A DNA stretch of 35,402 nt from an uncultured Clostridium sp. (GTDB lineage: Bacteria > Bacillota > Clostridia > Oscillospirales > Oscillospiraceae). The stretch covers positions 1-35,402 of the forward strand of contig CAJFVL010000012.1 in NCBI GenBank assembly GCA_904420465.1. Direction: 5' to 3'. The position numbers and the translations under genes are program-made. Under the pieces are notes generated by a model. The model saw only the letters and a program-made list of their open reading frames with translations, was not told the DNA's origin and ran no database searches. Every line of letters begins with the position of its first letter. Position 1 is the first letter of the stretch. This document shows, piece after piece, positions 18,584-26,724 of the stretch.

Positions 18584-19761
<1,178 letters not shown>

Positions 19762-19765
<4 letters not shown>

Positions 19766-20604
19766 TTCCAGGCGGGGATCTGGGTCCCCTGGAAGATCTC
19801 TTCGATGGCGGCGGCTGTCTCGTCAGACTGATAAGCGGCCAGCACCTTCTGGTACACCTCGTTGTCCAGGTCCTCGGTACGGCAGGCGATGATGTTCACA
19901 TAGGGGTTGTCGCTGCCTGCCTCCACCTGCTCGGTGTAGATGGCGTCAGACACATTCAGCCCGTGGTCCACCGCGTGGGCCCCGTTGATGAAGGCGGCGG
20001 TGACGTCGGGCAGCAGGCTGGCGGTGGTGGCGGCCTCCACCTCATAGAACTCCAGATTCAGGGGGTTGGCAGTGATGTCGGTGATCTCCGGGGTGTAGCC
20101 GGCGGCAGGGTCCACCTCCAGCACTCCGGCGGACTCCAAAATCTTGAAGCAGCGGCCCTCGTTGGTGGGGTCGCTGGGGACGGCGATGGTGTCCCCCTCC
20201 TTCAGCTCGCTGACGTCGGTGATATAGTTGGAGTACAGGGACAGGGGGGCGATGATGGTGTCCCCCAGCACAGACAGGTCATAGCCCAGGTCGTCGATCT
20301 CTCCCTGGAGGTAGGCCTTGTGCTGGAAGGCGTTCAGGTCGATCTCCCCGCTGTTCAGCGCCGCGTTGGGCAGCTTGTACTCGGAGAACTCCACCAGAGT
20401 GACGTGGATGCCCTCGTCGGCCAGCAGCTCGTTGACGGTGTCCCACTGCTCGTTGGTGGAACCCACCACGCCCACGGTGACCTCGGTGATCTCGTTTTCG
20501 CTGGGATCGGGAGCGCTGGAGCCCGAGCCGGAGCTGCCGCAGGCGGCCAGAGTCAGGGACAGAGAGAGCGCGAGGGTGAGAGCGGCAATTCGTTTCTTGT
20601 TCAT
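19762..20604 (-). CDS. metQ: Methionine-binding lipoprotein MetQ/NlpA family
   Basis: Lipobox LTLAACGSS; VGVVGSTNEQWDTV, YTQP-type fold AFQHKAYL, clustered with metI and metN. Confidence 0.9.
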
Positions 20605-20639
20605 TTCTTGTTCCTCCTGTTTTTCATTTGGATGTGTCA

Positions 20640-21320
20640 TCAGTGAGTGGCTTTCTTTGCAATATGGGTTCCCAGGGCCTGGATGATGCTGACCATGACG
20701 ATGATGATGAGAATGACCACAACCATCACGTCGTTCCGGTTCCGGGCATAGCCATAGGAGTAGGCGAAGTTGCCCAGCCCCCCCGCGCCCAGGGTCCCGG
20801 CCATGGCGGTAAAGTTGATCAGGGAAATCAGGGTGATGGTCACGCCCCGGGCAATGCCGGGGATGGCCTCCTTCAAATAGACCCGCCAGATGATCTCCAG
20901 GGGGGAGGCGCCGATGGACTGGGCCGCCTCGATCATCCCGGAAGGCACTTCAGCCAGGGCGTTTTCCGTCTGACGGCCCAGATAGGGGATGGTGCCGAAC
21001 AGCAGGGGGATGATGGCCCCCCGCACCCCGATGGCCGTGCCCATGATCAGGCGGCTCAGGGTCATCAGCAGCATGGCCAGCAGGATATAGGGGATGGAAC
21101 GGAACACGTCGCAGAACTTGCTCAGCAGGAAATGGACCGGCCGGTTCTCCAGAATTCCCCCCCGCTTGGTGGTGAACAGCAGCACCCCGAAGGGGATGCC
21201 CAGCAGCAGGGAGATGGAGCCGGCGATCCCCACCATCTGGAGAGTCTGGAGAAAGGCCTGCCAGAGCTGACTTTTCAAGGCCACCACATTGGGCATGATC
21301 TGATTCAAAAGCTCAGCCAC
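20640..21320 (-). CDS. metI: Methionine ABC transporter permease
   Basis: PNVVALKSQLWQAFLQTLQMVGIAG, FRSIPYILLA, TMAGTLGAGGLGNFA-like EAA region. Confidence 0.93.
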   Translation of the reverse strand: MAELLNQIMPNVVALKSQLWQAFLQTLQMVGIAGSISLLLGIPFGVLLFTTKRGGILENRPVHFLLSKFCDVFRSIPYILLAMLLMTLSRLIMGTAIGVRGAIIPLLFGTIPYLGRQTENALAEVPSGMIEAAQSIGASPLEIIWRVYLKEAIPGIARGVTITLISLINFTAMAGTLGAGGLGNFAYSYGYARNRNDVMVVVILIIIVMVSIIQALGTHIAKKATH

Positions 21321-22347
21321 GGGCGATCACCTCCACCAAGACATTGCGGCTGGACAGATCTCCCATGGCGGCGGCGATCCGGTCGTGTTCCCCGCTGGCA
21401 ATGACCACCAGTCCGCCCAGGGGGTTGCCGTCGATCAGTTCGATGTCTCCCAGCAGAATATTCGCGTCAATTTCATAGGTGCGGGAAATATAGGAGATCA
21501 GCGCCTCGGAGGAACTGCGCTCCAGGTACCGCAGCCGGATCAGATAGTCCCCGGGCGAAAGCCGGACGGGATGGCCCGGGTCCTGAAGCAGGTCGTCGAT
21601 GCGGGAGAGGGTGGAGGTGCTGGACACAAAGCTTCGGGTAATCTCCTTCTGAGGGAAGGAGAACACCTGGAATACATCTCCCTCCTCCACCACCTGTCCG
21701 CCGTCCATGACATAGACCACGTCGCAGATCTCCTTGACCACCTGCATCTCGTGGGTGATGACCACAATGGTGATGCCCAGCGTCCGGTTCAAATCCTTGA
21801 GCAGCTGGAGGATGGACTTGGTGGTCTGGGGGTCCAGAGCGCTGGTGGACTCGTCGCTGATGAGCACCTCCGGGTCGTTGGCCAGCGCCCGGGCGATGGC
21901 CACCCGCTGCTTTTGTCCGCCGGACAGCTGGGAGGGATAGGCCCCCGCCTTGTCGGACAGGCCCACCAGCTCCAGCAGGCGGCGCACCTTCTGGTCCCTC
22001 TCCCGCCGGCCGATGCCGCTGCGGCGCAGCGGAAAGTCTACATTGCCGTAGGCCGTGCGGGCGGAGAACAGATTGAACTGCTGAAAGATCATGCCGATCT
22101 TTTTCCGCTTTTCCCGGAGCTCACCCGCCCGCAGCGCGGTGAGGTCAGCCCCGTCCACAACGACCCGCCCCTCGGTGGGCCGCTCCAGCAGGTTGATGCA
22201 CCGGGCCAGTGTGGACTTGCCCGCGCCGGAGAAGCCGATAATGCCGGCAATCTTTCCCTTTTCAATGTGCAGGCTGACGTCTCTCACCGCCTCCACCGCC
22301 TGCGCGCCATTGGCAAATCGCTTGGAGACGTGTTCCAATTGGATCAC
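21313..22347 (-). CDS. metN: Methionine ABC transporter ATP-binding protein with C-terminal NIL domain (GTG start)
   Basis: [37 protein letters not shown]-terminal NIL-like domain; RBS AAAGGGG before GTG at 22347. Confidence 0.93.
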   Translation of the reverse strand: MIQLEHVSKRFANGAQAVEAVRDVSLHIEKGKIAGIIGFSGAGKSTLARCINLLERPTEGRVVVDGADLTALRAGELREKRKKIGMIFQQFNLFSARTAYGNVDFPLRRSGIGRRERDQKVRRLLELVGLSDKAGAYPSQLSGGQKQRVAIARALANDPEVLISDESTSALDPQTTKSILQLLKDLNRTLGITIVVITHEMQVVKEICDVVYVMDGGQVVEEGDVFQVFSFPQKEITRSFVSSTSTLSRIDDLLQDPGHPVRLSPGDYLIRLRYLERSSSEALISYISRTYEIDANILLGDIELIDGNPLGGLVVIASGEHDRIAAAMGDLSSRNVLVEVIARG

Positions 22348-22361
22348 AGTGTTTCCCCTTT

Positions 22362-22403
22362 CCTGAAAATGAAAACGGCAGACACGCCAGTGCGCATCTG
22401 CCG
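22362..22403 (-). terminator. Putative attenuator terminator upstream of metN
   Basis: Minus strand CGGCAGATGCGC ACTG GCGTGTCTGCCG (12-bp stem with 2 GU pairs) followed by TTTTCATTTT. Confidence 0.75.
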
Positions 22404-22421
22404 CCGGACGAAAAACTCCGT

Positions 22422-22526
22422 TCACATTCGGAAGCGCGCAGCACAGCCGTCCATCATTCCAGAGCGCATGGAATCATGGAAGCAGATGGTCCGCATCCCG
22501 CTGTGCAGTACAATCGCATGCCGCAT
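22422..22526 (-). CDS. 34-aa methionine-rich leader peptide MRHAIVLHSGMRTICFHDSMRSGMMDGCAARFRM
   Basis: ATG preceded by AAAGGAG at 6-nt spacing; 6 Met of 34; stop lies upstream of the attenuator hairpin and metN. Confidence 0.6.
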   Translation of the reverse strand: MRHAIVLHSGMRTICFHDSMRSGMMDGCAARFRM

Positions 22527-22569
22527 GATGGACTCCTTTCTGGCTGAGCGCCCGGCTGATGTGCTTTTC

Positions 22570-22599
22570 AGCATACCACAATTCCCGAAAAAGTGTTAA
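22570..22599 (-). promoter_or_regulatory. Promoter of metN leader
   Basis: Minus strand TTAACA - 18 nt - TATGCT. Confidence 0.55.
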
Positions 22600-22690
22600 T
22601 ACACAAAGCCGAATGTTAGGTATAGCTAAATTCTATAACAGAGAGGCCGGGTCCGCGGGAAGAAAGCCGATCCGCGGGAGGCAGCCGCAC

Positions 22691-23590
22691 CTATGTGGCC
22701 ATGGCCTGCCTGACCTCCTTCAAATACAGCGCGCCCAGCCGGCTGAGTTCGCTGCCCCGGCGCTGGATATAGCCGATGCGCATAATGCCGCCGCCCCCCA
22801 GGGGGACCGCCTTGTACTCCGAGCCGTTGAGCTCCTCACATATAATACCGGAGCAGAGGGTAAAGCCATTGATCCCCTTCATAAAATTCAGGGCGGTGGC
22901 CCGGTCGCAGACCCGGATCAGCTGTCGGTAGGGGTAGGTGCTCATAACCTCCTCCGCGAGAAACAGGGAGTTCTCCTTCCCCACCTCGAAGGCGATGCAG
23001 GGGTAGGGCTCCAGGTCGGCCATGGTCAGCTCCGGGCGGGCGGCCAGGGGGTGTCCCTGCCAGAGATATACGCAGGTGGAGCAGTCCTTCAGCGGGTGAA
23101 ACTCCAGATTGTTCTCGTCCAGAAGCTTGGAGATATACCGCTGATTGAAATCATCCTGGTACAGGATGCCCAGCTCGCTTTTGTAATCCCGCACATTTTC
23201 AATGCACTCATAGGTTTTGGTCTCCAGCATGGAGAACTCATACTCCTCCATGCCCACCTTGCGGATCAGCTGGGAAAAGGCGTTGACCGCGAAGGTGTAG
23301 TGCTGGGCGGAGACGGAAAATTTCTTTTTGGATTTCCCCTCCACAAAGCGCTCCTCCAGCAGGGCATACTGGGCGCACACCTGCCGGGCGTAGCTGAGGA
23401 ATTCCTCCCCCTCCGCCGTGATGGTCACCCCGCGGTTGGAGCGCCGGAACAGCTCAAAGCCGATTTCCGCCTCCAGTTCTTTTACCGCGCTGGACAGGCT
23501 GGGCTGTGACACATACAGGTTTTTGGACGCGGCATTGACCGAGCCGCTGTCCGCGATCACGGTGACATATTTCAGCTGCTGCAGGGTCAT
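22691..23590 (-). CDS. LysR-family transcriptional regulator
   Basis: MTLQQLKYVTVIADSGSVNAASKNLYVSQPSLSSAVKELEAEIGFELFRRSNRGVTIT. Confidence 0.93.
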   Translation of the reverse strand: MTLQQLKYVTVIADSGSVNAASKNLYVSQPSLSSAVKELEAEIGFELFRRSNRGVTITAEGEEFLSYARQVCAQYALLEERFVEGKSKKKFSVSAQHYTFAVNAFSQLIRKVGMEEYEFSMLETKTYECIENVRDYKSELGILYQDDFNQRYISKLLDENNLEFHPLKDCSTCVYLWQGHPLAARPELTMADLEPYPCIAFEVGKENSLFLAEEVMSTYPYRQLIRVCDRATALNFMKGINGFTLCSGIICEELNGSEYKAVPLGGGGIMRIGYIQRRGSELSRLGALYLKEVRQAMAT

Positions 23591-23796: not shown

Positions 23797-23970
23797 AAAG
23801 ATGATAGAGGCGCAAAGCTCATCAGTATCCCCGTCCAGGCGCACAACCGCCGGCGAAGCGGGGAGAAAGGGTGCTTTGCCGAAATGGGGCGCCGGATTGT
23901 GCGGCGTTCTGTTGGGCGGCGGGATAAGATCCCGACGACTGTCACACTGCGTGAAGCGCTATCGTTCTTT
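23797..23970 (+). ncRNA. Lysine riboswitch (L box) aptamer
   Basis: P1 AAAGATGATAG/CTATCGTTCTTT; conserved AGAGGCGC...AGTA, GGGTGCTTTGCCGAA, P4 CGGGATAAGATCCCG, ACTGTCA; L2 CACAA (23842-23846) complementary to L3 TTGTG (23897-23901). Confidence 0.92.
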
Positions 23971-23992
23971 CCATGTATGGCTTTGGGATTGG

Positions 23993-24028
23993 AAACGACT
24001 GCGGCGCCGCGCGCTGTGGTCGTTTTTG
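23993..24028 (+). terminator. Riboswitch expression-platform terminator
   Basis: AAACGACTGCGGCGC..GCGCTGTGGTCGTTTTTGTTT hairpin plus U-tract before the SBP RBS. Confidence 0.75.
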
Positions 24029-24053
24029 TTTACCTTGCAGATGGAAAGGAAGA

Positions 24054-25013
24054 ATGAAAATGAAAAGATTTTCTGCTCTGTTCCTGGCTCTTGCCATGGC
24101 GCTCTCTCTGGCCGCCTGCTCCGGCGGCAGCGGCTCCTCCAGCTCCTCCGGCGGCAGCTCCAGCAGTTCCGGAGAGGGCGGCGAACAGGTGACCGTTCCC
24201 CCCGTGGAGGATCTGACCGGCGTGGACACCAGCGCCATCCCTGGCGTGGAGGACGGGGTCCTCACCGTGGGTATGGAGTGCGCCTACGCACCCTACAACT
24301 GGATGCAGATGGACGACTCCAACGGTGCGGTGCCCATCTCCAACGTGGCGGGCTCCTACGCCAACGGCTATGACGTGATGATCGCCAAGCGTATCTGCGA
24401 GGCCTACGGCTGGGAGCTGGAGATCGTCTCCAGCGACTGGGAGGGCCTCACTGCCTCCATCCAGTCCGGCGTGATGGACGCCAACATCGCCGGCCAGTCC
24501 ATGACCGCCGACCGGCTGGAGGAGGTGGACATGGCGGGCCCCTACTTCTATGCCACCATCGTCTGCGTCACCACCAAGGATTCCGCTAACGCTGAGGCCA
24601 CCTCCATCCAGGAGCTGAGCGGCAAGTGCACCGCCCAGACCGGCACCATCTGGTACGACTCCTGCCTGCCCCAGATCGAGGGGGCCGAGATCCTGCCCCC
24701 CGCCGAGTCCGCCCCTGCCATGATCATGCAGCTCCAGACCGGCACCGCCGACTTCATCTGCACCGATCTGCCCACCGCCATGGGCGCCGTGGCCAAGGAT
24801 GACGACCTGGTCATCCTGAACTTCTCCGGCACCGACGGGGATTTTCAGTTCGCCGACGAGGCGGAGCGGGCCGAGAATGTGAACATCGGCATCTCCGTGG
24901 AGAAGGGCAACACCCAGCTGGTGGAGGCCATGGACCGGGTGCTCTCCGCCCTGAACGAGGAGCAGTTCAACGCCCTCATGGACCAGGCCATCGCCATCCA
25001 GCCCGAGATCTGA
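24054..25013 (+). CDS. Amino-acid ABC transporter substrate-binding lipoprotein (family 3), probably lysine
   Basis: MKMKRFSALFLALAMALSLAACSGG signal/lipobox; MECAYAPYNW; RBS GGAAAGGA; tracked ORF start at 23973 lies inside the riboswitch and is rejected. Confidence 0.92.
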   Translation: MKMKRFSALFLALAMALSLAACSGGSGSSSSSGGSSSSSGEGGEQVTVPPVEDLTGVDTSAIPGVEDGVLTVGMECAYAPYNWMQMDDSNGAVPISNVAGSYANGYDVMIAKRICEAYGWELEIVSSDWEGLTASIQSGVMDANIAGQSMTADRLEEVDMAGPYFYATIVCVTTKDSANAEATSIQELSGKCTAQTGTIWYDSCLPQIEGAEILPPAESAPAMIMQLQTGTADFICTDLPTAMGAVAKDDDLVILNFSGTDGDFQFADEAERAENVNIGISVEKGNTQLVEAMDRVLSALNEEQFNALMDQAIAIQPEI

Positions 25014-25099
25014 TCGGGGAAAACAGCATCTTCACCGTGTCATCCGGCGCCGCCATCGGGGCCGGATGACGCGGCCTATACAGGAAAGGAGCGCCCTCT

Positions 25100-25981
25100 A
25101 TGGAGCGGTTTATCGATCTGGGCCGGGATATGTCCCTTCTCTGGGAGAACTATAAGGGAAGCTTTTTCCTCGGCAGCGGTTACCTGGGCGGTATCCGGAA
25201 CACGCTGGTGCTGGCGGTGGTGGCCACCCTGATTGGCTGCGTCATCGGCTTTACCTGCGGCGTCCTGAACACCATCCCCTACACCAAAAACGACCCCGCC
25301 CCCAAGCGCTTCGTCCTGAAGCTGATCCGGATGCTGGTGCGGGTCTATGTGGAGGTATTCCGGGGCACCCCCATGGTGCTTCAGGCGGTGTTCATCTATT
25401 ACGGCCTGCCCTACTTCTGGAACATCCAGTGGCCCAGCGTGTGGGCGGCTGCCATCCTGGTGGTGTCCATCAACACCGGGGCCTATATGGCCGAGTCGGT
25501 GCGGGGGGGCATCATCTCCATTGACCCCGGCCAGACCGAGGGGGCCAAGGCCATCGGCATGACCCATGTGCAGACCATGACCAGCGTGATCCTGCCCCAG
25601 GCCCTGCGGAACATCATGCCCCAGATCGGCAACAACTTTATCATCAACATCAAGGACACCTCGGTGATGTTTGTCATCACCTTCTCTGAGTTCTTCGCCT
25701 TCCACCGCTATCTGGTGGGGGTGAACAGCAAGTACTTCCCCTCCGCCGCCATCGAGATGATCGGCTACCTTACCATGACGCTGCTCGCCTCCCTCCTGCT
25801 GCGGCTGCTGGAGAAGCGGTTGGACGGCAGCGACAGCTATGAGCTGGTCCAGGGGGACCAGCTGGTCATGGCCGCCGGCACCTACCGCCACCCTGGCCAG
25901 CCCGGCGCCGAGGTACATAAGGAGCAGAGGGACCGGATTGCCCAGAATCTGAAGCACGGCCGGAACAGGGGGGAGCGGTGA
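25100..25981 (+). CDS. Amino-acid ABC transporter permease (His/Glu/Gln/Arg/opine family)
   Basis: [71 protein letters not shown]. Confidence 0.93.
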
Positions 25982-26724
25982 ATATGAACGACGCCATTTT
26001 AGAGGTCCGGCACCTGTCCAAGACCTTTGGAAAGAACGAGGTGCTGCGGGACATTGACTTCACCGTCCGTCCCGGGGATGTGACCAGTATCATCGGAGCC
26101 TCGGGTTCAGGCAAGTCCACCTTGCTGCGGTGTGTCAACCTGCTGGAGACCCCCACCAGCGGAGAGATTGTCTTTCATGGGGAGAGCGTCACCGGCGGCC
26201 GTGTCAACGCCAACGCCTACCGGACCAAGGTGGGCATGGTCTTTCAGTCCTTTAACCTGTTCAACAACATGACGGTTCTGCAGAACTGCATGGTGGGTCA
26301 GACCAAGGTGCTGAAAAAGAGCAGGGAGGAGGCCCGGGAGAATGCCATGCGCTACCTGACCCAGGTGGGGATGGCCCCCTATGTCAACGCCAAGCCCCGA
26401 CAGATCTCAGGCGGCCAGAAGCAGCGGGTGGCCATTGCCCGGGCCCTGGCCATGGAGCCTGAGGTGCTCCTCTTTGACGAGCCAACCTCAGCTCTGGACC
26501 CGGAGATGGTGGGCGAGGTGCTGGAGGTCATGCGCTCCCTGGCCGACGGAGGCATGACCATGCTGGTGGTCACCCACGAGATGGCCTTTGCCCGGGATGT
26601 GTCCAATCAGGTCGTTTTTATGTCGGAAGGGGTCATCTGTGAGCAGGGCAGTCCCCAGGAGGTTCTGTCCAATCCGAAGCAGCAGCGCACACGGGAGTTT
26701 CTGACGCGCTTTGCCAAGGGATAG
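25978..26724 (+). CDS. Amino-acid ABC transporter ATP-binding protein
   Basis: [52 protein letters not shown]. Confidence 0.95.

Follow-up and report, generated by a model that had tools for sequence, protein, structure and literature searches.

Methionine transport operon and its leader

The window (the whole 35,402-nucleotide stretch of DNA analysed here) carries on its minus strand an apparent operon in the order metN (21313-22347, GTG start at 22347), metI (20640-21320), metQ (19762-20640) and, as its last gene, an M20-type amidohydrolase gene (18584-19765; TIGR01891). The first three encode the ATPase of a methionine ABC transporter with its NIL domain, the permease and the substrate-binding lipoprotein; the substrate of the amidohydrolase is perhaps an N-acylated methionine. 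A LysR-type regulator gene (22691-23590, minus strand), whose product is a candidate activator, lies directly upstream of the met operon.

The metN leader begins with the promoter TTAACA-18-TATGCT (22570-22599, minus strand; TTAACA at 22599-22594, TATGCT at 22575-22570), which has a TG before the -10 box and 9 of 12 consensus matches; promoter-like sites number 2 in 1.4 kb against 0.3 expected, and TATTAACAC of the promoter region is retained by congeners. The Shine-Dalgarno (SD) sequence AAAGGAG (22533-22539) precedes an ORF of 34 codons (22422-22526), encoding MRHAIVLHSGMRTICFHDSMRSGMMDGCAARFRM, with Met at codons 1, 11, 20, 24, 25 and 34, that is, six Met counting the start, a tandem MM at 24-25 and one Met just before the stop. 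These elements stand exactly as they were first described. The ORF closes with an R-M-stop signal, CGAATGTGA (22422-22430), common to other metN leaders, and its tail (GCTGCGCGCTTCCGAATGTGA, 22422-22442) is a candidate 5' strand of an antiterminator, predicted to pair with the 5' arm of the terminator. The preliminary description had rightly placed an intrinsic terminator between the ORF and metN; the hairpin (22375-22404, followed by the tail TTTCATTTT) has 13 bp instead of 12, starts 17 nt past the ORF stop instead of 19, and has a predicted stability of about -23 kcal/mol. When the leader is shuffled with its dinucleotides preserved, 0.02% of the shuffles contain an ORF of up to 60 codons that has an SD and at least five internal Met (p ~2e-4), and a chance origin of the ORF is rejected. 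The leader as a whole folds mildly better than its shuffles (z -1.7).

A perfect 17-bp palindrome, TATAGAATTTAGCTATA (TATAG-N7-CTATA, 22621-22637), lies between the LysR-type gene and metN, about 21 bp ahead of the metN -35 box. Nowhere else does TATAG-N7-CTATA match exactly, 0.03 matches being expected in the window when up to one mismatch is allowed, and the site is kept by congeners both with and without the leader ORF. Its arms are identical to those of TATAGTTTSAAACTATA, the streptococcal CmhR/MtaR site (PMC5359408). The metN promoter of this genus also holds a candidate operator for a LysR-type (MtaR/CmhR-like) protein, which would be one outside streptococci and lactococci. In Lactococcus lactis the met operon is under the joint control of a Met T-box and the LysR protein CmhR (PMC7058034); by analogy, the leader peptide would take in the window operon the place held there by the T-box.

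Known RNA switches

Rfam searches of the window leader returned no family at cut-off, and relaxing the threshold to E<=5 brought up neither a SAM nor a T-box model; nor does the leader contain a T-box signature (GGTGG-N-ACCACG-like). Neither a SAM riboswitch nor a Met T-box was thus found in this leader, as had been stated at the outset, and both were rejected as explanations of it. A match to the COG2827 RNA family (22.8 bits, E 0.08, cut-off 49.1) was taken as chance. Rfam was likewise negative on 15 leader-peptide loci. Across the whole window the sole Rfam match is a lysine riboswitch (110 bits; 23797-23969, plus strand), ahead of a different transporter, a polar amino-acid ABC transporter (23973-26724). 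The genome of the window contains one SAM-I match (L031, G000:C14), which adjoins metK and serves as a positive control; since it is the only one in the genome, SAM and Met sensing may be split between metK and metN.

Leaders of close relatives

The close comparison drew on the metN leaders of seven congeners, with MetN identities of 73-76%. The preliminary description had proposed comparing orthologous leaders for a short Met-rich ORF and a terminator; two keep a short Met-containing ORF together with a terminator. Of the seven congeners, G030 (L007) has the ORF MRTIITITTSTMMMCRGSMCRGTTVGFAARFRM, preceded by an identical Shine-Dalgarno sequence and followed by a terminator that differs in sequence; G352 (L070) has MESISTRIAPVLSCHPAMCAGMMASLVPRARM plus a terminator. 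The ORF ends AARFRM-stop in L007 and RARM-stop in L070. In the six other congeners (L002-L006, L081) the promoter is followed at once by the metN SD, with neither ORF nor terminator. On the MetN tree the three rows with a leader cluster together, next to the six leaderless rows, themselves one clade. ORF and terminator are present together or missing together, so the two appear to travel as a unit; a terminator kept where the ORF was lost was not seen among the close homologues. When a profile of two leader peptides was run across the genus, no more than 2 of 64 genomes proved to have the leader, and an order-wide leader-peptide profile added matches that were weak and unconvincing; the productive route was a search by MetN followed by reading of the upstream leaders.

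Methionine-rich leaders and T-boxes across the family

A wider set comprised 137 metN upstream regions of the family, taken to be Oscillospiraceae, many from metagenome-assembled genomes (MAGs). With each region placed in a single class, T-box taken first, a Met-rich ORF is present in 41, a T-box signature in 40 and only an R-M-stop ORF in 4; metQ lies directly upstream in 6, another 42 have none of these features and 4 are too short. An unbiased scan of 118 metN upstream regions gave 32 SD-preceded ORFs with at least five internal Met against 0.10 from shuffles, with none on the reverse strand of the same regions and none at the 37 loci with a T-box signature. The ORFs chosen for further analysis contain 282 ATG triplets in frame and 28 out of frame (24 and 4); their residues include 24% Met, a descriptive figure because the set was picked for Met-rich ORFs, and 6.3% Cys. 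Examples are MRIRRQNSMMMGMMMCMDTMRMMMRAQNAGLSHIISE (L104), MTHGYGMMMRGMDMAMMPMPTLLRASVKQF (L075) and MQTQTKKIALSMMMC (L078). Every parsed leader ORF has a terminator ahead of metN. Dozens of more distant metN or metQ leaders, with terminators, have ORFs far richer in Met than that of the window, which with its five internal Met ranks near the bottom of the set in Met content.

Where close pairs allow a comparison, the leader ORF is under coding selection as judged from its substitutions: the g180 group gave a pS of 0.289 and a pN of 0.048 (pN/pS 0.17), the other groups having too few pairs or changes to gauge it. A leader profile built from one subtype picks up Met-rich ORFs that are followed by metN or metQ wherever the next gene could be identified, and in some metQ-first operons the leader lies ahead of metQ. 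Similar ORFs occur in another family of the order, in Lacrimispora celerecrescens 152B and in a Christensenella MAG; the scan of named genomes found mainly distant MetN, yet supplied named carriers. Chryseobacterium and Flavobacterium possibly carry similar ORFs, as single cases without statistics: in the Bacteroidota loci L209 (Chryseobacterium), L204 (Flavobacterium pectinovorum) and L253, short ORFs containing Met and Cys (motifs MMMYCC and MMCC; L253, MLKFCFVCCSNIFQ, read by eye) and terminator-like hairpins precede metN. The Cys enrichment often takes the form MMMC or CMCM, and such leaders might sense both sulfur amino acids.

The T-box counts rest on the sequence signature. Among five signature-bearing loci submitted to Rfam (L089, L095, L098, L099, L080), L095 and L080 scored above cut-off in the metN leader, and the match of L089 sits on the other strand. 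The specifier region of L095, GAACAUGG, fits a Met specifier when read by eye from the alignment. Because the MetN tree requires several changes of leader type, T-box and leader peptide have probably taken each other's place repeatedly. In bacilli, histidine leader peptides stand in for T-boxes at hisS and hisZ (PMC2965389).

Pairing of the leader ORF with the terminator

The preliminary description had proposed a search for an antiterminator that overlaps the ORF. Two kinds of pairing were assessed, that between the ORF tail and the terminator arm, and that within the stall-state RNA, defined as the RNA left free by a ribosome halted at the last upstream Met; the choice of leaders by Met-rich ORFs has no bearing on either. 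A first pairing test, in which the terminator was cut at its loop, gave a weak result because the pairing uses bases of the loop and of the 3' arm. The tests were revised, with wider limits and as stall-state folds, after that result had been seen; in this form, and at the level of groups, which is preferred because sequences within a group are related and p-values are hence approximate, the stall-state RNA of 30 independent groups folds better than its shuffles (mean z -1.55, p 2e-8) and pairs with the terminator arm in excess (p 1e-4), and in 32 groups the ORF tail pairs better with its own terminator arm than with shuffled (p 6e-4) or swapped partners (p 8e-4). Strong single cases are L142, L241, L168, L104 and L118. 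As a statistical trend of the set, therefore, the leaders favour mutually exclusive pairings. Taken individually, the window leader does no better than chance (z -0.23 for the stall-state fold, +0.89 for the pairing of tail and arm, neither significant), so that a competing antiterminator is supported for the set and not for this leader by itself. Its antiterminator is a predicted fold, in which 10-11 nt of the terminator arm would be paired at -17.5 to -18.1 kcal/mol; the corresponding folds sequester 15 nt of the arm in L007 and 10 nt in L070. A protector helix of the 1:2 type was seen by eye in g180 leaders only, formed by GGAGGCGCGC with GCGCGCCTCC.

A recurrent R-M-stop signal

Seven short ORFs end in R-M-stop, where shuffles give 0.2 and the reverse strand has none. 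The sequence CGAATGTGA closes short pre-metN ORFs in L001, L070, L120, L141, L262 and L265, and its counterpart in L007 is CGAATGTAG; further R-M-stop ORFs were found in L344, L348 and L375 (L136 also belongs to the set). The pattern GARCGAATGTGAN{0,6}CTYC has six matches in 251 genomes, each directly ahead of metN, and the reversed pattern, used as a control, has none among the genomes listed. Four leaders from three genera share the peptide end R[FY]PSGERM-stop (for example MNDLIKPKRYPSGERM), and this conservation across genera leans towards a role for the peptide itself.

In five leaders (L344, L348, L136, L262, L265) an arm that follows the stop is complementary to the metN SD. L262 and L265 have tandem leaders, in which a Met-rich ORF with its terminator is followed by a separate R-M-stop ORF with an SD-masking hairpin. 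We read the combination of R-M-stop and SD-masking hairpin as a putative second switch, acting on translation. The window leader, inspected by eye, has no post-stop arm that pairs with the metN SD, and the terminator stands there instead. The R-M-stop signal, which is separate from the Met-rich attenuators, may represent a new arrest peptide. Tentatively, and with doubt outweighing confidence, we suggest that a dedicated arrest peptide, R-[FY]-P-S-G-E-R-M-stop or the shorter R-M-stop, could pause the terminating ribosome according to Met or SAM supply and so unmask the metN SD; the window leader would then combine Met control codons and the R-M-stop end in a single ORF joined to a terminator, a hybrid that would report both Met-tRNA charging and arrest.

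Proposed mechanism and alternatives

The window leader is probably a methionine-sensing, ribosome-mediated transcription attenuator of metNIQ, and one member of a diverse set of Met-rich leaders in Oscillospirales and some relatives. Leader-peptide attenuation was the original reading of this sequence, and it gains support from the negative SAM and T-box searches and from the ORF and terminator in orthologues. Transcription of the leader by RNA polymerase would be accompanied by ribosomal translation of the short ORF. When methionyl-tRNA is ample, the ribosome would reach the stop and cover the end of the ORF, the 13-bp terminator would form and transcription would halt before metN. Under Met shortage it would stall at Met codons (in the window, those of the MM at 24-25), and the freed ORF end could pair with the terminator's 5' arm, letting transcription enter metNIQ. 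The neighbouring LysR-type protein, acting at TATAG-N7-CTATA, probably has a part in setting initiation as well. Stalling at the Met before the stop would leave the ribosome sitting on the ORF tail, which would promote termination; Met codons within a single ORF could thus act in opposite directions. As a counterpoint to an attenuator, six of the nearest orthologues manage without a leader. Relatives keep remaking the layout of ORF and terminator, from which it appears that these gut Clostridia probably sense Met shortage by ribosome stalling.

The functional core might instead be the conserved R-M-stop end, at which the ribosome would pause by nascent-chain arrest or by Met shortage at the final codon, the upstream Met codons mattering little; elsewhere this end would precede an SD-masking hairpin, and in the window it would have been joined to a terminator. 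The excess of such ORFs over shuffles, the position of all pattern matches directly before metN, the R[FY]PSGERM-stop end of four leaders and the SD-complementary arm of five speak for this account. We nevertheless consider it unlikely, as the end is missing from most Met-rich leaders, the window has a terminator and lacks the SD-pairing arm, and a pause at the last codon would favour that terminator by covering the ORF tail. It is also conceivable that the LysR-type protein alone controls metN, with the ORF and terminator being remnants or a basal dampener that does not sense Met. The operator is kept in congeners, some of them leaderless, and its arms match the CmhR/MtaR site (PMC5359408). 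However, two diverged homologues keep ORF and terminator despite changed sequence, and the Met enrichment of the ORF (p 2e-4) also makes this account very unlikely. Since a LysR protein and an RNA-based Met switch act together in L. lactis (PMC7058034), control by LysR and control by the leader do not exclude one another.

That the leader is filled by an undescribed metabolite-binding RNA, with SAM, Met or another ligand and an incidental ORF, seems highly improbable. The DNA of CGAATGTGA is conserved and can sit in a hairpin loop, and Rfam does not hold all ligand-binding RNAs. Against such an RNA, the leaders show no evident common fold and no Rfam match, their Met codons lie in frame by 282 to 28, the pN/pS of the g180 group is 0.17, and the one SAM-I match of the genome adjoins metK. 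The methionine attenuator is our preferred reading of the window leader.

Comparison with known systems

Leader peptide attenuation is classical, as in the trp, his, leu and ilv leaders. The leaders described here resemble these in having a short ORF rich in codons for the amino acid of the operon, a terminator and, across the set, a tail predicted to pair with its 5' arm. They differ in that Met would be sensed (Cys being enriched in the set), that the operon concerned serves uptake (metNIQ or metQNI), and that the hosts are Clostridia in whose relatives the same operon has T-box leaders; the leader peptides are also highly diverse. Translational attenuators of the ermC type have a leader ORF and, after it, a hairpin that masks the SD. 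Relatives whose R-M-stop leaders have putative SD-masking hairpins resemble this arrangement, unlike the window leader with its terminator.

A Met-containing leader peptide ahead of metNIQ, metL (MSTTSDRTPATEATTTPGARCMCRRMCAF), was proposed in 2021 from RNA-seq for Streptomyces lividans TK24 (PMC8079986, Table 4). As far as the portions of that report consulted here go, metL differs from the window leader in belonging to Actinobacteria, in its leaderless transcript and in the lack of a clear terminator, and comparative support for it was not seen in them. An earlier study, of 2005, found no RNA element for Met operons of Actinobacteria (PMC1262725). In the literature searched, in which subscription papers were thinly covered, we found no report of a Met leader peptide for metNIQ in Clostridia. 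If our reading is right, Met leader-peptide attenuators, proposed once before without a terminator, are widespread in gut Clostridia and share their genomic place with Met T-boxes, the leader type having changed several times along the MetN tree. They would then offer a natural series for asking how sensing mechanisms replace each other, and would identify a control of met transporters in commensals that have hardly been studied.

SAM-I (S-box) riboswitches also govern Met and SAM genes by transcription termination, but they bind SAM, and none matches in the metN leader. The Met T-box, as in L. lactis (PMC7058034) and in L095 and L080, shares with the window leader the operon, the presumed signal (a shortage of charged tRNA-Met) and the terminator readout, and in L. 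lactis it is likewise combined with a LysR activator, CmhR. It reads uncharged tRNA directly, whereas the sensor in the window would be the translating ribosome. An exchange between T-box and leader peptide in Firmicutes is already known, for hisS: the His leaders at hisS and hisZ in bacilli (PMC2965389) are, like the leaders described here, leader peptides of Firmicutes at a place where relatives have a T-box, and they differ in amino acid, gene and clade.
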